Part shown: positions 9,515-17,332 of the stretch, in pieces
How the letters are laid out: each line of letters begins with the position of its first letter
Position numbering within the stretch: position 1 is the stretch's first letter
Origin: Streptomyces violaceoruber
Lineage (GTDB): Bacteria; Actinomycetota; Actinomycetes; Streptomycetales; Streptomycetaceae
NCBI GenBank assembly: GCA_000720805.1
Contig: JODI01000051.1
Span: 1-59,753, forward strand
DNA length: 59,753 nucleotides
Direction of reading: 5' to 3'
Translations under genes and position numbers: made by a program
The notes under the pieces: model-generated
Told to the model about the DNA's origin: nothing
The model's input: only the letters and a program-made list of their open reading frames with translations
Databases searched by the model: none

Positions 9515-9797
9515 GCCGGTCCCCCAGGGGTGCTCGAACTGCCTCTTTGGACTGATTCCACTTTTCGACAACACGCAACATACGCCTGGGAATTCCCGCC
9601 CGCCAGCAAGGAAAGGCTCGGCTAACCTGCGGTTTCATCCCTCACCGCTCATCCGTAGAAGGGCTCGCACAGATGTCGACCGGGTGACACGGAGGCGCGG
9701 ACGGCTGCACGGAACACCACACCGGGGACAGTTCCGCAAAGGGTTCCGCGCCCCGGAAACGTCTTCGGGCGGCGCCCCCCGAGAGGAGAAGCCGCGT

Positions 9798-10817
9798 ATG
9801 GCATCGATCGCCTGCACTCCCTCCGCCCCGGCGTCCGCGAACGCCGCCGAGCTCCGTGAGCGGGCCCGCGGCGCACTGCTCGGCCTGGCCGTCGGGGACG
9901 CCCTGGGCGCCCCGGCCGAGAACATGAAGCCCTCCGAGATCCGCGCGCGCTGGGGCCGCATCACCGGCTACGTCACCGACAGCCCCGCCGGCACGGACGA
10001 CACCGAGTACGCGATCTTCTCCGGCCTCCTCCTGGCCCGCCACGGCTCCGCGCTCACCCCGGCCCACGTGGAGGCGGCCTGGCACGAGTGGATCGCCGAC
10101 CGCCACGAGGGCCCCTTCCGGGGCGCCGGCTTCAGCGAACGCGGCACCCTCGAGAACCTCCGCCGGGGCCTGGCCGCCCCCATCTCGGCTCAGCACCGCC
10201 ACGCCTGGAGCGATGGCCTCGCCATGCGCGCGGCCCCCTTCGGCGTCTTCGCGTCGGGCCGCCCGGCCGAGGCCGCCCGCCTGGTCGCGATCGACGGCTC
10301 GGTGAGCCACGACGGCGAGGGCATCTACGGCGGTCAGGCGGTCGCGGCCGGGGTGGCGGCGGCGATGGCGGGCGCCCCGACCGTGGCGGTGGTCGCCTCG
10401 GCCCTGGCGGTCGTCCCCGACGACTCCTGGACGGCCCGCTCCCTGCGCCGTGCGGTGGCGGTGGCCCACCGGGGCGAACGCGCGGTGCGCTCCGCCGTCG
10501 TCATCGGCGGCTACCCCTGGACCGACCTGGCCCCCGAAGCGGTCGCCCTCGCCTTCGGCGCCTACGCGGCAGCCGACGGCGACTTCGTCCAAGCGGTCCT
10601 GACAGCCGTCAACATGGGCCGCGACGCCGACACCACGGCAGCGGTGGCCGGCGCCCTGGCCGGCGCGACCGGCGGAGCCGCCACGATCCCGCCCGCCTGG
10701 GCCTCGGCCATCGGCCCGGCCCGCGGCAGCTGCCTCCCGTCCATGGCGGGCCACCACATCCTGGACGTGGCGGAACTCCTGATGCCGACCCCCAAGGGAT
10801 CGGAGGTGCCCACATGA
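9798..10817 (+). CDS. ADP-ribosylglycohydrolase family protein, paralogue 1
   Basis: A 339-residue ARH-family protein (DraG/ARH fold, all-helical, binuclear Mg or Mn site). The metal and catalytic motifs are complete: GDALG (33-37), TDDT (66-69) and DADT (276-279) followed by the glycine- and alanine-rich GALAGATGG helix. An active hydrolase acting on an ADP-ribosyl or related N- or O-glycosidic bond is therefore likely. No signal peptide is seen. The ATG at 9798 has GAGAGGAGAAG seven bases upstream. It is the first gene of six overlapping genes; its stop overlaps the next start by ATGA. The 283-base gap before it (9515-9797) must hold the promoter of the cassette, but I could not pick one out. 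The substrate is unknown. Confidence 0.9.
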   Translation: MASIACTPSAPASANAAELRERARGALLGLAVGDALGAPAENMKPSEIRARWGRITGYVTDSPAGTDDTEYAIFSGLLLARHGSALTPAHVEAAWHEWIADRHEGPFRGAGFSERGTLENLRRGLAAPISAQHRHAWSDGLAMRAAPFGVFASGRPAEAARLVAIDGSVSHDGEGIYGGQAVAAGVAAAMAGAPTVAVVASALAVVPDDSWTARSLRRAVAVAHRGERAVRSAVVIGGYPWTDLAPEAVALAFGAYAAADGDFVQAVLTAVNMGRDADTTAAVAGALAGATGGAATIPPAWASAIGPARGSCLPSMAGHHILDVAELLMPTPKGSEVPT

Positions 10818-12454
10818 CCCCGCCGACCCCCTGGGCCGAGGGCGTCACGACAGTTACGACACCGACGGAACCACTGGAACCGCTGGAACCACTGGAACCA
10901 CTGGAACCCGAGTGCACGACGGCGGCCGAGCCGGCCGAACCGGAGACCACGGCCACGGCCGAGCCGCTCGAACCCGGGCCCCGGACCAAAGCGGATCTGC
11001 TCGAAACGCCCGAGCCCGAGCCCGAGCCCCCGACCAAAGCGGAACTGGTCGAACCGCCCGAGCCCGAGCCCCCGACCAAAGCGGATCTGCTCGAACCGCC
11101 CGAACCCGAGCCCCCGACCAAAGCAGAACTGCTCCACCTGCTCGAACCCGAGCCCCCGACCGAGGGAGAGCTGCTCGCGCCCGCATCCACGTCCACGGCG
11201 GAGCCGCTCGAACCGCCGGCCGCGGACGGTGAGAACACCCCACCGGGGCCACTCGCACCCGACGACGAAAGCAGCACGGGTGGTCCGGGTGGGAACACTC
11301 CCGCCGAAGGCGAAGCCGAGGCCGTTCAACCCGCCCCGCAACACCACCGCATCGAGGGTCTCCTGCTCGGCCTGGCCGCAGGCGACGCCGCCGGGTGGCC
11401 CGCCGCCCGCCATCGAGCCGTCCGGATGCCCGACTGGACCCGCCGCCTCACCCGCGAACTGGACACCTTCGCCGAACAGAACGCGACGACCACCCTCCCT
11501 GTCCCCATCGCCCTGAACCAACCCCCGGAACCCCTCTACCTCGGCCCCTCGGACGACGCCGAGTGGGCGACCTTCACCGCCGAAGCCCTTCTCCGCGCGG
11601 GCGACGACACCACCCTCGGCGACCTCAGCCGAGAACGCCGTACCCGCGCCGCCATCGACCTGACCTGGAACGCCGTAGCCGGCGAGGTCGCCGCCGCGGC
11701 GAACCGCGCCCCCGAGATCGAGTCCGCCGTCCTCCCCCTCCGCGCCCGCATCTCCGTCCGCGCCGGCCTCGGCAACCTCGCCACCGGCCTGCGCCCGCCC
11801 GCCACCGGCCACGACAACCCGCACTACTTCGACGACGCGGCCTGCGTCCGGGCCTGCGTCCTCGCCGTGGCCCACCCCGGCGACCCACGGGGCGCCGCCG
11901 ACCTGGCCGAGTTCGACGCCCGCTACACCCAGGACGGCGACGGCGTGCACGGCGCCCGCGCGATGGCGGCGGCCGTCTCCCTCGCCCTCGCCGGAGCCGA
12001 CGTACAGACATGCGCGACCGCCGCGCTCGCCGAGCTCCCCGAGTCCACCGAGATCGGCCGCAACGCCCGCCACGCGCTCCGGCTGGCCCACGACGCTCAG
12101 AGCGCCTTCGCCCTGGTCCCCCTCCTCGAGCACCAGATCGTCGACCACGTCTACAGCTACGGCGTCGCGGCCGCCGAAACCGTCCCGGTCGCCCTCGCCC
12201 TGGCCACGGCGGCACACGGCCGGATCGCGGAGGCGGTGCCGGCGGCCGCCTGCCTCTCCCGGGTCGCCGACTCCGCCCCGGCCCTCGCGGGCGCACTCAC
12301 CGGCGCGTTGGGCGGCGGCGGGGCGATCCCCGCCTCCTGGCGGGAGGCCTGCCGCACCCTCTCCGGCTGCGCGCTCCCCCGCCTCACCGGGACCGACCTG
12401 GTGGAACTCGCCGAACTCCTGGAAGCCGCACAACCAACCCCGCCAGGGGGATGA
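10814..12454 (+). CDS. ADP-ribosylglycohydrolase-like protein with repeat tail, paralogue 2 (likely inactive)
   Basis: A 546-residue protein. Residues 1-175 are low-complexity Pro/Glu/Thr sequence with tandem repeats, and residues 176-546 resemble the ARH fold. The active-site motifs are eroded: GDAAG (190-194) for GDALG, SDDA (246-249) for TDDT, and S-R-V484-A-D486-S in place of G-R-D-A-D-T, which loses one metal-binding aspartate. This suggests a pseudoenzyme, perhaps a partner or scaffold for its neighbours. The start overlaps the previous stop (ATGA). The loss of the aspartate is seen directly; inactivity is inference. Orthologues elsewhere would show whether this is a stable feature. Confidence 0.8.
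   Translation: MTPPTPWAEGVTTVTTPTEPLEPLEPLEPLEPECTTAAEPAEPETTATAEPLEPGPRTKADLLETPEPEPEPPTKAELVEPPEPEPPTKADLLEPPEPEPPTKAELLHLLEPEPPTEGELLAPASTSTAEPLEPPAADGENTPPGPLAPDDESSTGGPGGNTPAEGEAEAVQPAPQHHRIEGLLLGLAAGDAAGWPAARHRAVRMPDWTRRLTRELDTFAEQNATTTLPVPIALNQPPEPLYLGPSDDAEWATFTAEALLRAGDDTTLGDLSRERRTRAAIDLTWNAVAGEVAAAANRAPEIESAVLPLRARISVRAGLGNLATGLRPPATGHDNPHYFDDAACVRACVLAVAHPGDPRGAADLAEFDARYTQDGDGVHGARAMAAAVSLALAGADVQTCATAALAELPESTEIGRNARHALRLAHDAQSAFALVPLLEHQIVDHVYSYGVAAAETVPVALALATAAHGRIAEAVPAAACLSRVADSAPALAGALTGALGGGGAIPASWREACRTLSGCALPRLTGTDLVELAELLEAAQPTPPGG
10976..11182 (+). repeat. 42-base in-frame tandem repeats in ARH paralogue 2
   Basis: Residues 55-123 hold about five copies of a 14-residue unit of the form PEPEPPTKA(D/E)LLEP, with TKADLLE-like cores at residues 58, 74, 88, 102 and 116. 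The region just before it repeats LEP (residues 21-32). The unit is a multiple of three, so copy number can change without a frameshift. Confidence 0.9.
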
Positions 12455-12462
12455 TTCCGGGC

Positions 12463-13686
12463 ATGACACCCAAAACAGAAGAAAGCCGAGGAACGGGTCG
12501 CGGAACGAGCGGCGGAACGAACCGAGGAACGAGCCGGGAAGCGAATCTGGACGAGCGCATCACCGGCGCCCTGGTCGGCGCGGCCGTCGGCGACGCCCTG
12601 GGCGGCCCGGTCGAGGGCTACTCCCCCGAGCAGATCGTCGAACGCCACGGCGACCGCGTCCACGGCATCGTCGGCCCCTGGAACGGCGACGCCTGGCGCA
12701 CCGCCCGCCCCCTCGCGCCGTACCACAAGGGCGACGGGCACGTCACCGACGACACCTTGATGACCCACGCACTCGTACGGGTCTACGCGCGGGTCCGCGA
12801 CCACCTCGACGCGTACGCGGTCGCCGACCACCTGGTCCCGGACCTGATGACGACCCCGCGCTGGATCCCGGAGCTGGAGGCCGAGGCGCTCCCCCTCCAC
12901 CGGATCTTCCTCGCGGAGAAGTGGCTGGTGGCGCGCCTCCACTACGGCCACATCGACCCCCGCGAGGCCGGCGTCGGCAACATCGTCAACTGCGGCGCCG
13001 CGATGTACATGGCCCCGGTCGGCCTGGTCAACGCGGCCAACCCCGGGGCCGCTTACACCGAGGCCCTCGACATCGCGGGCGCCCACCAGTCGTCGTACGG
13101 CCGCGAGGCGGCGGCCGTCCTCGCGGCGGCGGTGGCAGCGGCGACCGCACCCGCCGCGACCCCGGAGTCGGTCGTGTCCACCTGCCTCTCCCTGGCGAAG
13201 GACGGCACCCGTCAGGCGATCGAGAAGGTCTGCGAAACGGCGTCCCGCCACTCGGACTTCGAGTCGGCGCTGACTCCGCTCCGAGAAGCGGTCGCCCCCT
13301 ACGACACCGTGGGTCCCGACTACCGCGTCCCCTGCCTCGGCGCCCGCCGCCCGTCCCGCCTGCACTCGATCGAGGAACTCCCCATCGCTCTGGGCATGTT
13401 GCTCGTCGCCGACGGCGACTACCGCCACACCGTTCTCGGCGCGGTGAACTACGGCCGCGACTGCGACTCCATCGCGACGATGGCGGGCGCGCTCGCCGGC
13501 GCCCTCGGTTCCCCGGTCCCGGACGACTGGTCGAAGCAGGTGTCCGAGGCAAGCCGCCTGGACCTGTGGGAACCGGCGACGACCCTCACGGCCGTGACCC
13601 GGGAGATCTTCGAACGGGACGTCCACCGCCGCCGCGCCCATGAAGCGGCGTTCACGGAGATCGGAGGCCCCGGATGCTCCGACTGA
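12463..13686 (+). CDS. ADP-ribosylglycohydrolase family protein, paralogue 3
   Basis: A 407-residue ARH-family protein with a complete active site: GDALG (43-47), TDDT (95-98) and D333-C-D335-S in GRDCDS, followed by MAGALAGALG. A Gly/Arg/Thr-rich stretch (residues 10-25) precedes the domain. An additional conserved block GNIVNCGAAMYMAPVG lies mid-protein and is shared with larger ARH relatives. Two starts compete: ATG at 12451, which overlaps the previous stop as ATGA but has the GGGGG too close, and ATG at 12463, which leaves room for it; I chose the second. The gene ends 13 bases inside the next one. It is expected to be an active hydrolase with unknown substrate. Confidence 0.88.
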   Translation: MTPKTEESRGTGRGTSGGTNRGTSREANLDERITGALVGAAVGDALGGPVEGYSPEQIVERHGDRVHGIVGPWNGDAWRTARPLAPYHKGDGHVTDDTLMTHALVRVYARVRDHLDAYAVADHLVPDLMTTPRWIPELEAEALPLHRIFLAEKWLVARLHYGHIDPREAGVGNIVNCGAAMYMAPVGLVNAANPGAAYTEALDIAGAHQSSYGREAAAVLAAAVAAATAPAATPESVVSTCLSLAKDGTRQAIEKVCETASRHSDFESALTPLREAVAPYDTVGPDYRVPCLGARRPSRLHSIEELPIALGMLLVADGDYRHTVLGAVNYGRDCDSIATMAGALAGALGSPVPDDWSKQVSEASRLDLWEPATTLTAVTREIFERDVHRRRAHEAAFTEIGGPGCSD

Positions 13687-15164
13687 CCTGGGTCCAGCCG
13701 GAGGACCTGCTCGGCCACGAACTCCGCCAGGCGCAGCAGGACGGCCGGGAGCCCCAGGCGATCGCGGCGCGATGGAAAGCGGCTGGCGGCTCACAGGCCC
13801 CCCTGCGAGCGGGCGCCTCACCGAAACCGCCGTCCAGATACCTGCGTCGGCTCGCCGAGGACCTGCTGGACGAACTGGCGGACCTGCCCAGCCAGTTCAC
13901 GGACAGCGAGCCTACGGGCCTCGCGAAGATCAAGGCCAGTTGTCCCGCTTGGCCCGCCCCGGCCGCGGGCGGCCGCGCCGATGGGGCGATGCGGGTTCCC
14001 TCGCTCGACCGAAGCCGAGAGCGGGGCAGGCGGGGCACGGGCGGCGCGCCGCCGGCGCCGGGCTCCGCGACCCACCCCCGGCCCGTCCCCACCCAGGCCC
14101 GTCTGGAAGCGGCCTGGCTGGGCCGAGCCGCGGGCTGCCTCCTGGGCAAACCGGTGGAGAAGCTCCCCCTCACCGCCATCCGCCAACTGGCCGAATCCAC
14201 CGGCAACTGGCCCCTGACCACGTACTTCACAGCCCGAGGAGTCCCCGCCGAGCTCCTTCGCACCCACCCCTGGAACCGCCGCTCGGCGACCACCTCCCTC
14301 GCCGAGAACATCGACGGCATGCCCGAGGACGACGACCTCAACTACCCCCTCCTGAACCTCCTCCTGCTCCAACGCCACGGCAAGGACTTCACCACCGCGG
14401 ACGTAGCGGCCCTCTGGCTCGAGGAACTCCCCGCCGGCCGCACGTTCACCGCCGAACGCGTCGCCTACCGCAACCTCCTCACCGGCCTGGAACCCCCGCA
14501 CACGGCCCGCCACCGCAACCCCTTCCGCGAATGGATCGGCGCCCTGATCCGCGCCGACGTCCACGGCTGGACCAACCCCGGCGACCCGGCCGCCGCGGCC
14601 GAACAGGCTCACCGCGACGCCACCCTCACCCACACCGCCAACGGCGTCTACGCGGCCATGTTCACCGCTGCCACCATCGCCGCCGCCACCACCGCCGACG
14701 CCCCCACCGACGTCCACACCGCACTCCGCACCGGCCTCACCGTCGTCCCCCCGGCCTCCCGGCTCGCCCAGGCCGTCCGCCACGCCCTGCAACTGGCCCG
14801 AACCCACGAGAACTTCGACACGGTCGTCGACGAACTCCACGCCACTCACGCGCACACCCACCACTGGGTCCACGCCATCCCCAACACCGCCCTGATCGCC
14901 GCCGCCCTCACCCACGCGAACGGCGACTTCACCGGCTCCATCTGCCGTGCCGTGTCCGGCGGTTGGGACACCGACTCCAACGGCGCCACGACCGGCAGCA
15001 TCGCCGCCCTCCTCGCCGGCTCACCGTCCGCCCTCCCCGACCGCTGGACGGCCCCGCTGAAGAACCGCCTGGCCACCAGCGTCGGCGACTTCGACGGCAC
15101 CGGCTTCGACACCCTCGCCCGCCTCACGCACGACCTCGCCCACCTGGACGGACCCCGCCCATGA
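13674..15164 (+). CDS. ADP-ribosylglycohydrolase family protein, paralogue 4, divergent clade
   Basis: A 496-residue member of a separate ARH clade. Residues 1-90 form an extra N-terminal region, joined by a basic, low-complexity linker (about 95-140) to the ARH domain. In place of GDALG it has GCLLGKPVE (154-162), in place of TDDT it has EDDDLNY (218-224), and the C-terminal site is D432-T-D434-S in GWDTDSNGATTGS. Metal ligands are thus kept, but with the signature of the clade often found in nucleoside and sugar catabolism clusters. GGAGG lies six bases before the ATG, and the gene overlaps paralogue 3 by 13 bases. It probably acts on a different substrate from paralogues 1 and 3. Confidence 0.85.
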   Translation: MLRLTWVQPEDLLGHELRQAQQDGREPQAIAARWKAAGGSQAPLRAGASPKPPSRYLRRLAEDLLDELADLPSQFTDSEPTGLAKIKASCPAWPAPAAGGRADGAMRVPSLDRSRERGRRGTGGAPPAPGSATHPRPVPTQARLEAAWLGRAAGCLLGKPVEKLPLTAIRQLAESTGNWPLTTYFTARGVPAELLRTHPWNRRSATTSLAENIDGMPEDDDLNYPLLNLLLLQRHGKDFTTADVAALWLEELPAGRTFTAERVAYRNLLTGLEPPHTARHRNPFREWIGALIRADVHGWTNPGDPAAAAEQAHRDATLTHTANGVYAAMFTAATIAAATTADAPTDVHTALRTGLTVVPPASRLAQAVRHALQLARTHENFDTVVDELHATHAHTHHWVHAIPNTALIAAALTHANGDFTGSICRAVSGGWDTDSNGATTGSIAALLAGSPSALPDRWTAPLKNRLATSVGDFDGTGFDTLARLTHDLAHLDGPRP

Positions 15165-16369
15165 CCCACCCTGAACGGAAGTTCCCCGCCCCGCTCACCG
15201 GCCTGCGCGTCCTCGACCTCGCCACCCTCTTCGCCGGACCCCTCGCCGCCACCCTGCTCGGCGACTTCGGCGCGGAGGTCATCAAGGTCGAGCACCCGAC
15301 GAGACCCGACCCGTCCCGAGGCCACGGCCCGTCGAAGAACGGCGTGGGCCTGTGGTGGAAGGTGCTGGGCCGCAACAAGCGCACGATCACGCTGGACCTC
15401 TCCACCCCCGGCGGCCGCGACACCCTCCTCCGCCTGGCCGCCACCGCGGACGTCGTCATCGAGAACTTCCGTCCCGGCACCCTGGAGAAGTGGGACCTCG
15501 GCTGGGAGGACCTGTCCGCCGCCAACCCCCGTCTCGTCCTCACCCGTGTCACCGGCTTCGGCCAGTTCGGCCCCTCGGCCCACCGCCCCGGCTTCGGCAC
15601 TCTCGCCGAGGCGATGAGCGGCTTCGCCGCGATCACCGGCGAACCGGACGCGCCCCCGACGCTCCCGCCCTTCGGCCTCGCCGACTCCATCGCGGGCCTG
15701 GCGACGGCGTACGCGGTGATGACGGCCCTCGCCGCCCGCGACCGCACCGCCGCGGGCCAGGTCGTCGACATGGCGCTCATCGAGCCGATCCTGACCGCCC
15801 TCGGCCCGCAGCCGACCTGGTACGACCAGCTCGGCTACGTGCAGGAACGCACCGGCAACCGTTCCGCCAACAACGCCCCGCGCAACACGTACCGCACGGC
15901 GGACGGCACCTGGGTGGCCGTCTCCACCTCCGCCCAGTCGATCGCCGAGCGCGTGATGCACCTGGTCGGCCGCCCGGAACTGGTCGACGAACCGTGGTTC
16001 ACGACGGGCGCCGGCCGGGCCGCCCACGCCGACGTCCTCGACGAGGCGGTCGGCACCTGGATCGCCGCCCGCACGCGCACCGACGTCCTCGCGGCCTTCG
16101 AGAAGGCGGAGGCGGCCGTCGCCCCGATCCAGGACGTACGGGACGTGATGGCCGACCCGCAGTACCAGGCGCTGAACACGGTCACCACGGTCGACGACCC
16201 CGAACTGGGCCCCCTGCGCATGCAGAACGTCCTCTTCCGTCTCTCCTCCACCCCCGGCGAGATCCGCTGGGCGGGCCGCCCGCACGGTGCGGACACGGAA
16301 GAGGTCCTCACCGAACTGGGTCTGTCCGCGACCGAACTGACCGCGCTGCGCAAGGCGGGCGCGGTATGA
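15161..16369 (+). CDS. Class III CoA-transferase (CaiB/BaiF family)
   Basis: A 402-residue class III CoA-transferase that moves CoA between carboxylic acids. The fold begins with the typical LRVLDLATLFAGPLAATLLGDFG region, then VIKVEHP and NKRTITLDL. The catalytic aspartate that forms the acyl anhydride is D175 in the LADSIAG motif. The length is normal. The start overlaps the paralogue 4 stop as ATGA, and its own stop overlaps the next start the same way, so it is made together with the ARH proteins and the lyase. The family covers formyl-, carnitine-, succinyl- and mesaconyl-CoA transferases; the substrates here are unknown. Confidence 0.92.
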   Translation: MTHPERKFPAPLTGLRVLDLATLFAGPLAATLLGDFGAEVIKVEHPTRPDPSRGHGPSKNGVGLWWKVLGRNKRTITLDLSTPGGRDTLLRLAATADVVIENFRPGTLEKWDLGWEDLSAANPRLVLTRVTGFGQFGPSAHRPGFGTLAEAMSGFAAITGEPDAPPTLPPFGLADSIAGLATAYAVMTALAARDRTAAGQVVDMALIEPILTALGPQPTWYDQLGYVQERTGNRSANNAPRNTYRTADGTWVAVSTSAQSIAERVMHLVGRPELVDEPWFTTGAGRAAHADVLDEAVGTWIAARTRTDVLAAFEKAEAAVAPIQDVRDVMADPQYQALNTVTTVDDPELGPLRMQNVLFRLSSTPGEIRWAGRPHGADTEEVLTELGLSATELTALRKAGAV

Positions 16370-17244
16370 CGCAGCCCCCTCTGACCTGGCTGTACGCCCC
16401 CGGAGACCGCCCGCACGTCGTCACCAAGGCCCTCGCCACCGGTGCCGACGTCGTGATCGTCGACCTGGAGGACGCCGTCGCCCCCGACCGCAAGGACTAC
16501 GCCCGCGCGGCCACCGCCGACCTCCTCGCCGCACCGCAGCCGGTCCCGGTCCACGTCCGTGTGAACGCCCTCGGCAGCCCGGCCGCCGACGCGGACCTGA
16601 AGGCGGTGGCCGCGCTCCCGGGCGTCTCGGGCCTGCGCCTGCCCAAGGTGACCTCCCCTGAACAGATCGTCCGCATCGCCGAGAACATCACCGAGATCCT
16701 CGCCCGGAACAGCACCCGGAACAGCACCGAGGCCACGGACCCCGCCGACGGAACCGCACCCCCGCTGTACGCCCTCCTGGAGACGGCCCTCGGCATCGAA
16801 CGCGCCCACGCCGTCGCCCGCGCGCACGGCGCCTTGCGCGGCATCGCCCTCGGCGAGGCGGACCTCCGCGCCGACCTGGGCGTACGTGACGACGCGGGCC
16901 TCGACTGGTCCCGCTCCCGCGTCATCGTCGCCGCCCGGGCGGCGGGCCTTCCCCCACCGCCCCAATGCGTCCACCCCGACACTCGTGACCTGAAGGGCCT
17001 CGCCGCCTCCTGCGCCCATGGCCGCGCCCTGGGCTTCCTCGGCCGGGCCGCCATCCACCCCCGCCAGCTCCCGATCATCGAGCGTGCCTACCTCCCCACG
17101 GAGCAGGAGATCGAGGAGGCGGAGACGATCATCAAGGCGGCCACGACCGAAAGGGGAGCCCAGGCGCTTCCGGACGGCACCTTCATCGACGCGGCGGTGG
17201 TGGCGACGGCCCACCGCACCCTGGCCCTGGCCCGCCGTCACTAG
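16366..17244 (+). CDS. CitE-like HpcH/HpaI-family acyl-CoA lyase
   Basis: A 292-residue TIM-barrel protein of the citrate lyase beta/malyl-CoA lyase family, which cleaves beta-hydroxyacyl-CoA compounds such as malyl-CoA or citramalyl-CoA. Motifs are APGDRP, the metal- and substrate-binding VIVDLEDAV, HVRVN, LPKV, LLETALGI (metal-binding Glu) and LGEADLRADLG. The C-terminal GRAAIHPRQL block fits acyl-CoA binding. It is a stand-alone enzyme with no CitD or CitF beside it, so citrate lyase itself is unlikely. The ATGA overlap with the CoA-transferase suggests that enzyme makes the CoA thioester cleaved here. A strong two-way terminator follows. Confidence 0.88.
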   Translation: MTQPPLTWLYAPGDRPHVVTKALATGADVVIVDLEDAVAPDRKDYARAATADLLAAPQPVPVHVRVNALGSPAADADLKAVAALPGVSGLRLPKVTSPEQIVRIAENITEILARNSTRNSTEATDPADGTAPPLYALLETALGIERAHAVARAHGALRGIALGEADLRADLGVRDDAGLDWSRSRVIVAARAAGLPPPPQCVHPDTRDLKGLAASCAHGRALGFLGRAAIHPRQLPIIERAYLPTEQEIEEAETIIKAATTERGAQALPDGTFIDAAVVATAHRTLALARRH

Positions 17245-17280
17245 GGCCGTTCCGTGAGGCACATGCGTCCCGCCTCAACG

Positions 17281-17317
17281 CGACGAGGGCGCCCGGAGAT
17301 CCGGGGCGCCCTCGTCG
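17281..17317. terminator. Two-way terminator between the CitE-like gene and lgt
   Basis: CGACGAGGGCGCCC (17281-17294) pairs perfectly with GGGCGCCCTCGTCG (17304-17317) around a 9-base loop. It lies between two converging stop codons and ends the six-gene cassette. Confidence 0.85.
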
Positions 17318-17332
17318 TCGTACGGCCGAACG

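Follow-up and report, generated by a model that had tools for sequence, protein, structure and literature searches.

What purpose do four different ADP-ribosylglycohydrolase (ARH) genes serve when they lie in a row and are coupled to two genes of acyl-coenzyme A (CoA) metabolism? The question is raised by a 59,753-nucleotide stretch of DNA from Streptomyces violaceoruber (contig JODI01000051.1, called the window below), in which six genes encode four ARH-family proteins, a CoA-transferase and a C-C lyase. We propose that they make up the metabolic core of an operon of Actinomycetes, under LacI control, for the catabolism of a riboside or related glycoside, a reading that we consider, with its steps as set out below, moderately probable. 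In relatives the same genes follow a lacI gene and a sugar ABC transporter and are joined by a ribokinase gene. The six genes of the window are:

9798-10817, + strand: ARH1, ATG start, PF03747
10814-12454, + strand: ARH2, ATG start, PF03747
12451-13686, + strand: ARH3, ATG start, PF03747
13674-15164, + strand: ARH4, ATG start, PF03747
15161-16369, + strand: family III (CaiB/BaiF) CoA-transferase, ATG start, PF02515
16366-17244, + strand: CitE/RipC/malyl-CoA-lyase-like C-C lyase, ATG start, PF03328

The six open reading frames (ORFs) overlap successively by 4, 4, 13, 4 and 4 bases. At the ARH2/ARH3 junction the first ATG (12451) gives an overlap and a later one (12463) an 8-base gap, just as the preliminary description of this DNA had put it. 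All four ARH proteins belong to PF03747, with scores of 119-197 bits against a gathering score of 26.2 (E-values of 5.6e-58, 3.9e-34, 1.6e-48 and 2.7e-49 for ARH1 to ARH4), while the CoA-transferase and the lyase match PF02515 and PF03328 with E-values of 7.7e-123 and 2.6e-36. The earlier picture of four divergent ARHs coupled by overlaps to a CoA-transferase and a CitE-type lyase is borne out by the ORFs, by Pfam and by the paralogue tree described below.

Conservation of the gene cluster

ARH4 was searched for in 148 evenly drawn genomes of Actinomycetes, the window's own included (G000; genomes and loci carry our G and L numbers). An ARH4-like match was present in 29, and in 24, again counting the window's, a close orthologue (at least 57% identity) lies in an ARH cluster; one of these, G131, has an ARH4 fragment at a contig end. 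The CoA-transferase and lyase genes lie downstream of the ARHs in 22 of the 24, with a kinase or FGE-like gene intervening in some. G121 lacks them there and G131 cannot be judged because its contig ends; each of the two genomes has a CoA-transferase orthologue with an adjoining lyase elsewhere. The earlier suggestion that the genes act as a unit agrees with the 22 of 24 clusters that keep the pair downstream.

With an ARH3 profile at least 582 relatives were recovered from named genomes, and the best-scoring 80 loci were analysed; these lean to the Streptosporangiaceae. Genes in relatives were called by tblastn and a simple codon-position score, which placed some flanking ORFs on the wrong strand. 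The ARH-CoA combination recurs in varied surroundings in what we take, from the genera, to be Streptomycetaceae, Streptosporangiaceae, Jiangellaceae, Pseudonocardiaceae and Microbacteriaceae. Because the order is conserved across families, a chance neighbourhood of the six genes is ruled out.

A larger operon in related genomes

The full gene order is lacI, two CUT1-type permease genes, a gene for a substrate-binding protein (SBP), ARH1-ARH2-ARH3-ARH4, ribokinase, CoA-transferase and CitE-like lyase. The lacI, permease and SBP genes stand 5′ of the ARHs in 63 of the 80 loci; 13 clearly lack them and 4 could not be judged. The 13 belong to 12 named Streptomyces and '[Kitasatospora] papulosa', and all are at one genomic place, between gltB and lgt. 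Pfam assigns LacI, BPD_transp_1 (twice), SBP_bac_1 and PfkB in one copy of the operon. A PfkB gene lies directly 3′ of ARH4 in 61 of the 80 loci, is absent from 15 and could not be judged in 4. D-ribokinase is the best model for this kinase at 296-322 bits, the next non-ribokinase model reaching 101-108, and the ribokinase model TIGR02152 (cut-off 299.65 bits) is passed by two copies (322 and 308) and missed by a third (295.7). The best NCBIfam model for the operon LacI is RbsR, with a score below its cut-off. The relatives have the makings of a LacI-regulated CUT1 operon and the ribokinase expected of a ribose-releasing salvage unit; the window has neither.

In some lineages a two-half protein, part glycosidase-like and part FGE-like, is encoded between the ribokinase and the CoA-transferase. 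It is present in 4 of the 74 loci among the 80 that could be judged and in 7 further loci outside them, its hosts being some Jiangellaceae and Microbacteriaceae. The best fold matches of its model (pLDDT 73.7) are GH29 and GH13 with TM-scores below 0.5, and the FGE match also has a low TM-score; since low-scoring matches are all there is, the protein names no sugar, although as an operon member it again points to glycoside breakdown. In Microbispora rosea a TnpB/transposase-like ORF, recognised by eye, is found between the second permease gene and the SBP gene (L061:5272-6480).

A candidate operator

A GTAAACGTTTAC-like palindrome, whose core is TAAACGTTTA or a close variant of it, is located at most 400 bases 5′ of lacI in 62 of the 63 loci. 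The pattern was defined post hoc, after the upstream regions had been looked at. Within 1.56 Mb of loci there are 64 copies of the strict 10-mer TAAACGTTTA, none of them outside the position upstream of lacI. When 24 whole genomes were scanned with GKAAACGTTTMC, sites were found in 23, and a reversed control pattern in 1; by hand comparison of coordinates, 32 of the 39 sites are at the operon and 7 elsewhere. This concentration of sites suggests that the regulator is mostly local, and the palindrome is presumably bound by the operon LacI itself. Neither the window nor the 13 loci without lacI have the palindrome 5′ of ARH1; the best match there is 7 of 10 positions (in the window, to TAAACGTTTA at 9756).

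Active sites of the ARH proteins

The four paralogues fall into separate clades in a tree of selected sequences, each with its own orthologues in other families, at supports of 0.99, 1.0 and 1.0, and of 0.25 for ARH4. Nothing claimed here depends on two rows of this tree, G000_C21, whose reading frame is probably wrong, and G000_C8, which is partial. The separate clades rule out a recent tandem duplication of the ARHs.

In the ARH/DraG family a Glu and di-metal Asp motifs presumably have the catalytic and metal-binding roles. ARH1 has the motif I Glu and the TDDT and DxDT metal motifs intact, and GTDDTEY and GRDADT are kept in 95 of 96 loci. The Glu, TDDT and DxDS motifs of ARH3 are intact in the window, with TDDT and GRDxDS kept in 96 of 96. 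ARH4 belongs to a DDD...DTDS subgroup of PF03747, PEDDDL being found in 99 of 104 loci and the DTD motif in 100 of 104; at its N-terminus it has an additional helical segment, at about residues 9-89 of its model, and this model (pLDDT 76.6) finds MJ1187, ARH3 and DraG as structural matches. The catalytic Glu and the di-metal Asp residues are thus present in ARH1, ARH3 and ARH4 but not in ARH2: across 101 loci, every one of the 96 motifs I found for it is without the Glu, and the second metal motif (DxD) is without its first Asp in all 72 cases found, the aligned piece stopping earlier in 29.

The ARH2 sequence itself is conserved despite the degenerate site, and its gene directly follows ARH1 in all 75 of the 80 loci in which both were found. 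Related ARH1/ARH2 pairs also occur apart from CoA genes, beside LacI and CUT1-type genes (L043, which adds an ARH4-like gene, L049 and L050). ARH2 is probably a conserved non-catalytic partner of ARH1, to judge from these motifs and positions. Its predicted length differs widely among Streptomyces.

The ARH fold also turns up in other settings. Among its fold matches, at ranks 17 and 23, the ARH4 model finds components of chloroplast FtsHi motor complexes (Orf2971/Ycf2), with a TM-score of 0.63 by target length, the match lying in an ARH fold; these components are another use of the fold apart from ADP-ribosylation. Locus L043 (7010-15969; genome G134, family f19) holds a further ARH set, with LacI and CUT1-type genes, the ARH4-like gene, the ARH1/ARH2 pair, an RbsC-like permease and a 651-aa ARH-like protein that, by eye, seems to be secreted. 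If exported from the cell, that protein would be unable to act on intracellular ADP-ribosylation. An ARH4-like paralogue on contig 4 of the source genome adjoins a glycerate-kinase-like gene, as recognised by eye (L048:7874-8947), and the arrangement is similar in several Streptomyces (L045-L047). We considered this contig-4 gene, which also stands beside acyl-CoA-type genes, as a member of the system and rejected it; the CitE match there is 26-27% and the gene set is a different one.

The CoA-transferase and lyase as a module

The FGLAD motif of the CoA-transferase is found in 70 of 70 loci. Simple patterns recover the Arg, Glu and Asp motifs of the lyase in 61, 58 and 55 of the 70, and the three, together with an IHP motif, are invariant in a 12-sequence alignment; these motifs hold the presumed catalytic residues of the two enzymes. 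Equivalog scores lie below the cut-offs for the lyase (RipC 136.9/375 and CitE 144/443 bits) and for the CoA-transferase (mesaconate 204/700 and succinate-glutarate 240/750 bits).

Beside the ARHs the CoA-transferase and lyase genes are present in 48 of the 80 loci and absent from 25, of which 21 are from Nonomuraea; 7 could not be judged. The expectation that the ARH and CoA genes stay together holds for most relatives and fails in these 25 of 73 judgeable loci. In an evenly drawn sample of genomes, CoA-transferase orthologues (59-73% identity) turned up outside ARH clusters as well, and 14 such places were examined. At L164, L166 and L174 the gene lies near a lyase gene and a cyclase-type and an MmgE/PrpD-type gene (by Pfam for L164, by eye for the others), and the Pfam neighbours at L164 also include amidohydrolase, FAD-binding, isochorismatase and PEP-mutase families. 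At L168 and L169 its companions are a lyase gene and a gene for a DctM-type permease (at L169 Pfam gives DctM and RraA-like). No lyase was found near it at L167, L171, L173 and L175-L177, some of which are on short contigs. One clade (support 0.99) holds 67 of 70 ARH-linked CoA-transferases, and the other three join the DctM-type contexts (support 0.82).

The pair is a separable module. It looks like a general device for activating and splitting hydroxy-acids that was placed once or twice in an ARH operon; its presence in other catabolic-looking gene sets suggests hydroxy-acid catabolism and names no single substrate. Varying sets of cyclase, MmgE/PrpD, amidohydrolase and FAD-dependent genes, seen at L164, L166, L172, L174 and L175 (by Pfam at L164 only), resemble a heterocycle or dicarboxylate catabolic pathway. 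A putative esterase gene follows the lyase gene in two Microbacteriaceae (L122:17055-17993, assigned by Pfam, and L126:16506-17408), a hint that the substrate may be acylated.

The locus in the window and in other Streptomyces

Three more features of the window locus complete its layout:

9575-9797, no strand: VIT1-ARH1 intergenic region, presumed promoter from its position
10867-11161, + strand: Glu/Pro-rich N-terminal extension of ARH2, with 9-bp and 42-48-bp tandem repeats
17245-17327, + strand: hairpin 3′ of the final stop codon; presumed to be a terminator from its folding energy

The strong terminator claimed at the end of the unit is there as a hairpin (-56.9 kcal/mol, z -4.1, 0 of 200 shuffles equally stable); a pattern scan that requires a T run lists no terminator for the locus, so the label is drawn from the hairpin. 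A pattern scan of 9575-9797 gave no promoter-like site. Upstream lie gltB (recognised by eye) and the VIT1 gene (by Pfam), both on the - strand; downstream, recognised by eye, are lgt, which is convergent, and a dsb-like gene, also on the - strand. PF03747 is found at ten places in the source genome (10.5 Mb, 350 contigs), and the window cluster accounts for four.

The exact place of the window cluster, between gltB and lgt, is occupied by the larger operon in three Streptomyces (L113, L124, which has no kinase, and L129). The reciprocal reduction is seen at L178:9960-13200, where permeases and SBP alone are left between VIT1 and lgt. The window most plausibly shows one way, among several, in which a common ancestral operon has been reduced; that several families have the full form points to loss rather than gain. 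Among 61 evenly drawn Streptomyces, ARH3 is present in 42. A kinase of the operon subfamily is found in 33 of these 42 and in 1 of the 19 others (Fisher p 5e-8); that exception, G207, has a contig that starts inside ARH4 and continues with kinase, CoA-transferase and lyase. In G174 the cluster is split, ARH4-kinase lying about 37 kb from ARH2-ARH3 (L179 and L180), and no CoA-transferase was found beside either half.

An orphan transporter of two permeases and an SBP, related to that of the operon, is encoded on contig 18 of the source genome (L052:10093-13066), with no ARH or LacI match beside it. Its SBP is 55% identical to that of L029 and is sister to the Streptomyces operon SBPs (support 0.98, midpoint-rooted tree). 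Similar orphans occur in many Streptomyces, including ones without ARH3, and the idea that the contig-18 transporter is a strict partner of the cluster was rejected at p 0.09. Because such a relative persists, import may still be possible.

In Streptomyces coelicolor the six genes would correspond to SCO2028-SCO2033, and ARH1 to SCO2028 as its positional orthologue, if one goes by position and by a published ARH list rather than by alignment. The anchor for counting back is trpX, given as SCO2038 in PMC5036795, and the list, in PMC9411070, comprises eight DraG/ARH proteins, four of them SCO2028-SCO2031. Two of these, SCO2028 and SCO2030, are reported as negative on uracil-ADP-ribose (U-ADPr) in PMC13036486.

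Proposed pathway

How might these parts work together? A small glycoside, most likely a riboside, would be imported by the ABC transporter of the operon and hydrolysed by ARH-fold enzymes, namely ARH1 with its inactive partner ARH2; ARH3 and ARH4 would then act on further bonds or forms. The released ribose would be phosphorylated by the ribokinase. The other half, an acid of hydroxy-dicarboxylic type, would receive CoA through the action of the family III transferase, and the lyase would split the CoA-acid to give an oxo-acid together with acetyl-CoA or one of its homologues. Known ARH relatives cut the anomeric bond of ribose. A hypothesis in the preliminary description, by which a ribosyl-type bond is cut and CoA is used to process the acid, agrees with the presence of LacI, a sugar ABC transporter and ribokinase around the genes in relatives.

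A more specific version is that a whole branch of the ARH superfamily serves as a catabolic ribosidase system rather than in ADP-ribosylation signalling; a mixed ARH1/ARH2 complex, with ARH3 and ARH4 acting on further bonds, would dismantle a novel riboside of a hydroxy-dicarboxylic acid, the sugar passing to the ribokinase and the acid to CoA transfer and retro-Claisen cleavage. We put this forward tentatively, as a possibility less likely to be right than wrong. O-glycosyl malates, e.g., the glucosaminyl-malate half of bacillithiol, offer a comparison for such a compound.

Several observations weigh against the proposal of a riboside-catabolic operon. CUT1 transporters usually carry oligosaccharides rather than ribosides, and neither the CoA-transferase nor the lyase reaches any NCBIfam cut-off. 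Of the loci that could be judged, 25 of 73 lack the CoA genes beside the ARHs and 15 of 76 lack the kinase, which implies that both the acid and the sugar branch are dispensable; in two of the 80 loci, those of Herbiconiux and Naasia, neither ARH1 nor ARH2 was found. Absence of a linked transporter is the rule in Streptomyces, linkage being seen in 4 of the 42 with ARH3, and the contig-18 type is weakly tied to ARH3 (28 of 42 with it against 8 of 19 without, p 0.09). The window locus itself is without LacI, transporter, kinase and palindrome; any pathway there would be outside the repressor's control and would need another importer or an internal source. The reduced Streptomyces form may have a new task. 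Finally, the negative U-ADPr result for SCO2028 and SCO2030 does not bear on the proposed substrates and is no proof of the proposal.

Alternative explanations

The most familiar role for such proteins would be a regulatory one, in which the ARHs remove ADP-ribose from protein or nucleic acid targets in the cell and merely adjoin unrelated acyl-CoA metabolism. Membership of PF03747, the Glu and metal motifs kept in ARH1, ARH3 and ARH4, and the match of the ARH4 model to the ARH3 and DraG folds all agree with it, and the S. coelicolor genes are listed as putative ADP-ribosyl hydrolases in two papers (PMC5087735, PMC9411070). We nevertheless regard it as quite improbable, and set aside what the preliminary description had named as its alternative: the company kept in the operon is LacI, a sugar ABC transporter, ribokinase and CoA enzymes, and no ADP-ribosyltransferase or toxin is among the operon genes (LacI, ABC, PfkB, FGE-like, CoA), a result confined to these genes, as no scan with transferase models was made of the rest of the window or of the genome. 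The DraG and Tri1 equivalog cut-offs (TIGR02662 and NF041672) are far off, ARH1 scoring 76.6/337 and 43.5/490 bits, and the inactivity of SCO2028 and SCO2030 on U-ADPr (PMC13036486) weakens the idea slightly. An even less likely account is ordinary synteny, by which functionally unrelated ARH and CoA genes are held together by a stable region. It can draw on the CoA-transferase and lyase genes found outside ARH clusters and missing from a third or so of the judgeable ARH loci (25 of 73), but several families show this combination, in differing genomic surroundings, and nearly all ARH-linked CoA-transferases (67 of 70) share the clade with 0.99 support.

Two other accounts would alter the proposal in part. 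The glycone may not be ribose, in which case the ARH-fold enzymes would be furanosidases or glycosidases of general scope and another sugar would be the substrate of the PfkB kinase; the transporter is of CUT1 and not of the ribose type CUT2, a glycosidase-like TIM-barrel/FGE-like protein is encoded in some Jiangellaceae and Microbacteriaceae, and only two of three kinase copies pass the ribokinase cut-off. D-ribokinase is nonetheless the best model by a wide margin, and characterised ARH relatives act on ribosyl bonds, as is general knowledge, which makes another glycone rather unlikely in our view. It is also conceivable, if unlikely, that Streptomyces has re-tasked the reduced cluster to recycle an internal riboside, e.g., from NAD, a modified nucleoside or a secondary metabolite. 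The window and the 13 gltB-lgt loci have no LacI, ABC transporter or palindrome, yet the window and 12 of those 13 loci keep the motifs of ARH1, ARH3, ARH4 and the CoA-transferase intact (the contig of the thirteenth ends inside ARH4), and ARH3 is retained in 42 of 61 Streptomyces. Set against this, a relative of the operon transporter is encoded elsewhere in 28 of the 42 Streptomyces with ARH3, G000 included, so that import may continue.

If the riboside-catabolic reading is right, there are several implications. The authors of PMC5087735 note with surprise that putative ADP-ribose hydrolases far outnumber the known transferases; much of this imbalance would vanish. Assays of the cluster enzymes on ADP-ribosylated protein or nucleic acid would target the wrong substrate. 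The ARH fold would have a catabolic role, with a regulator whose likely operator could help to find the inducer, and the operon would offer a route to a new natural riboside.

Comparison with known systems

Text searches of the literature, in open full texts, gave no description of the operon among the matches listed, and SCO2032 and SCO2033, searched as whole words, were not mentioned in the literature covered (without subscription papers and preprints). Several known systems resemble parts of it. Bacteroides rus loci are ribose-scavenging clusters with ribokinases and ribose-releasing hydrolases, and in this they are like the operon; they differ in their SusC/D-type uptake and belong to another phylum. 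The ADP-ribosyl hydrolases DraG, ARH1 and ARH3 have the PF03747 fold and metal-site motifs in common with the cluster ARHs, but their genomic setting is different, the cluster proteins miss the equivalog models and ARH2 is degenerate. The itaconate/citramalate (Ict-Ccl/Rip) and malyl-CoA pathways likewise proceed by CoA transfer followed by C-C cleavage and share the conserved motifs, whereas the window pair stays below every NCBIfam cut-off and the operon has no hydratase.

Similar in plan is yegTUV of Escherichia coli, in which, according to PMC10819704, a nucleoside-type symporter, the ARH-family YegU and a putative sugar kinase of PfkB type, YegV, are under one repressor. It differs in having a single ARH, an MFS importer, a GntR-type repressor and no CoA-transferase or lyase, and its function is also unproven. 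In staphylococci an ARH gene lies beside a permease and an annotated ribokinase (PMC3637587, PMC3321955); here too there is one ARH, the permease is of nucleobase type, and there is no LacI/ABC and no CoA branch. We suggest that the two can be read as independent parallels for the association of an importer, an ARH and a sugar kinase. The parts of the operon are of known kinds, and, as far as we have seen, the combination of four ARHs with LacI/ABC, a ribokinase and a CoA branch is new.

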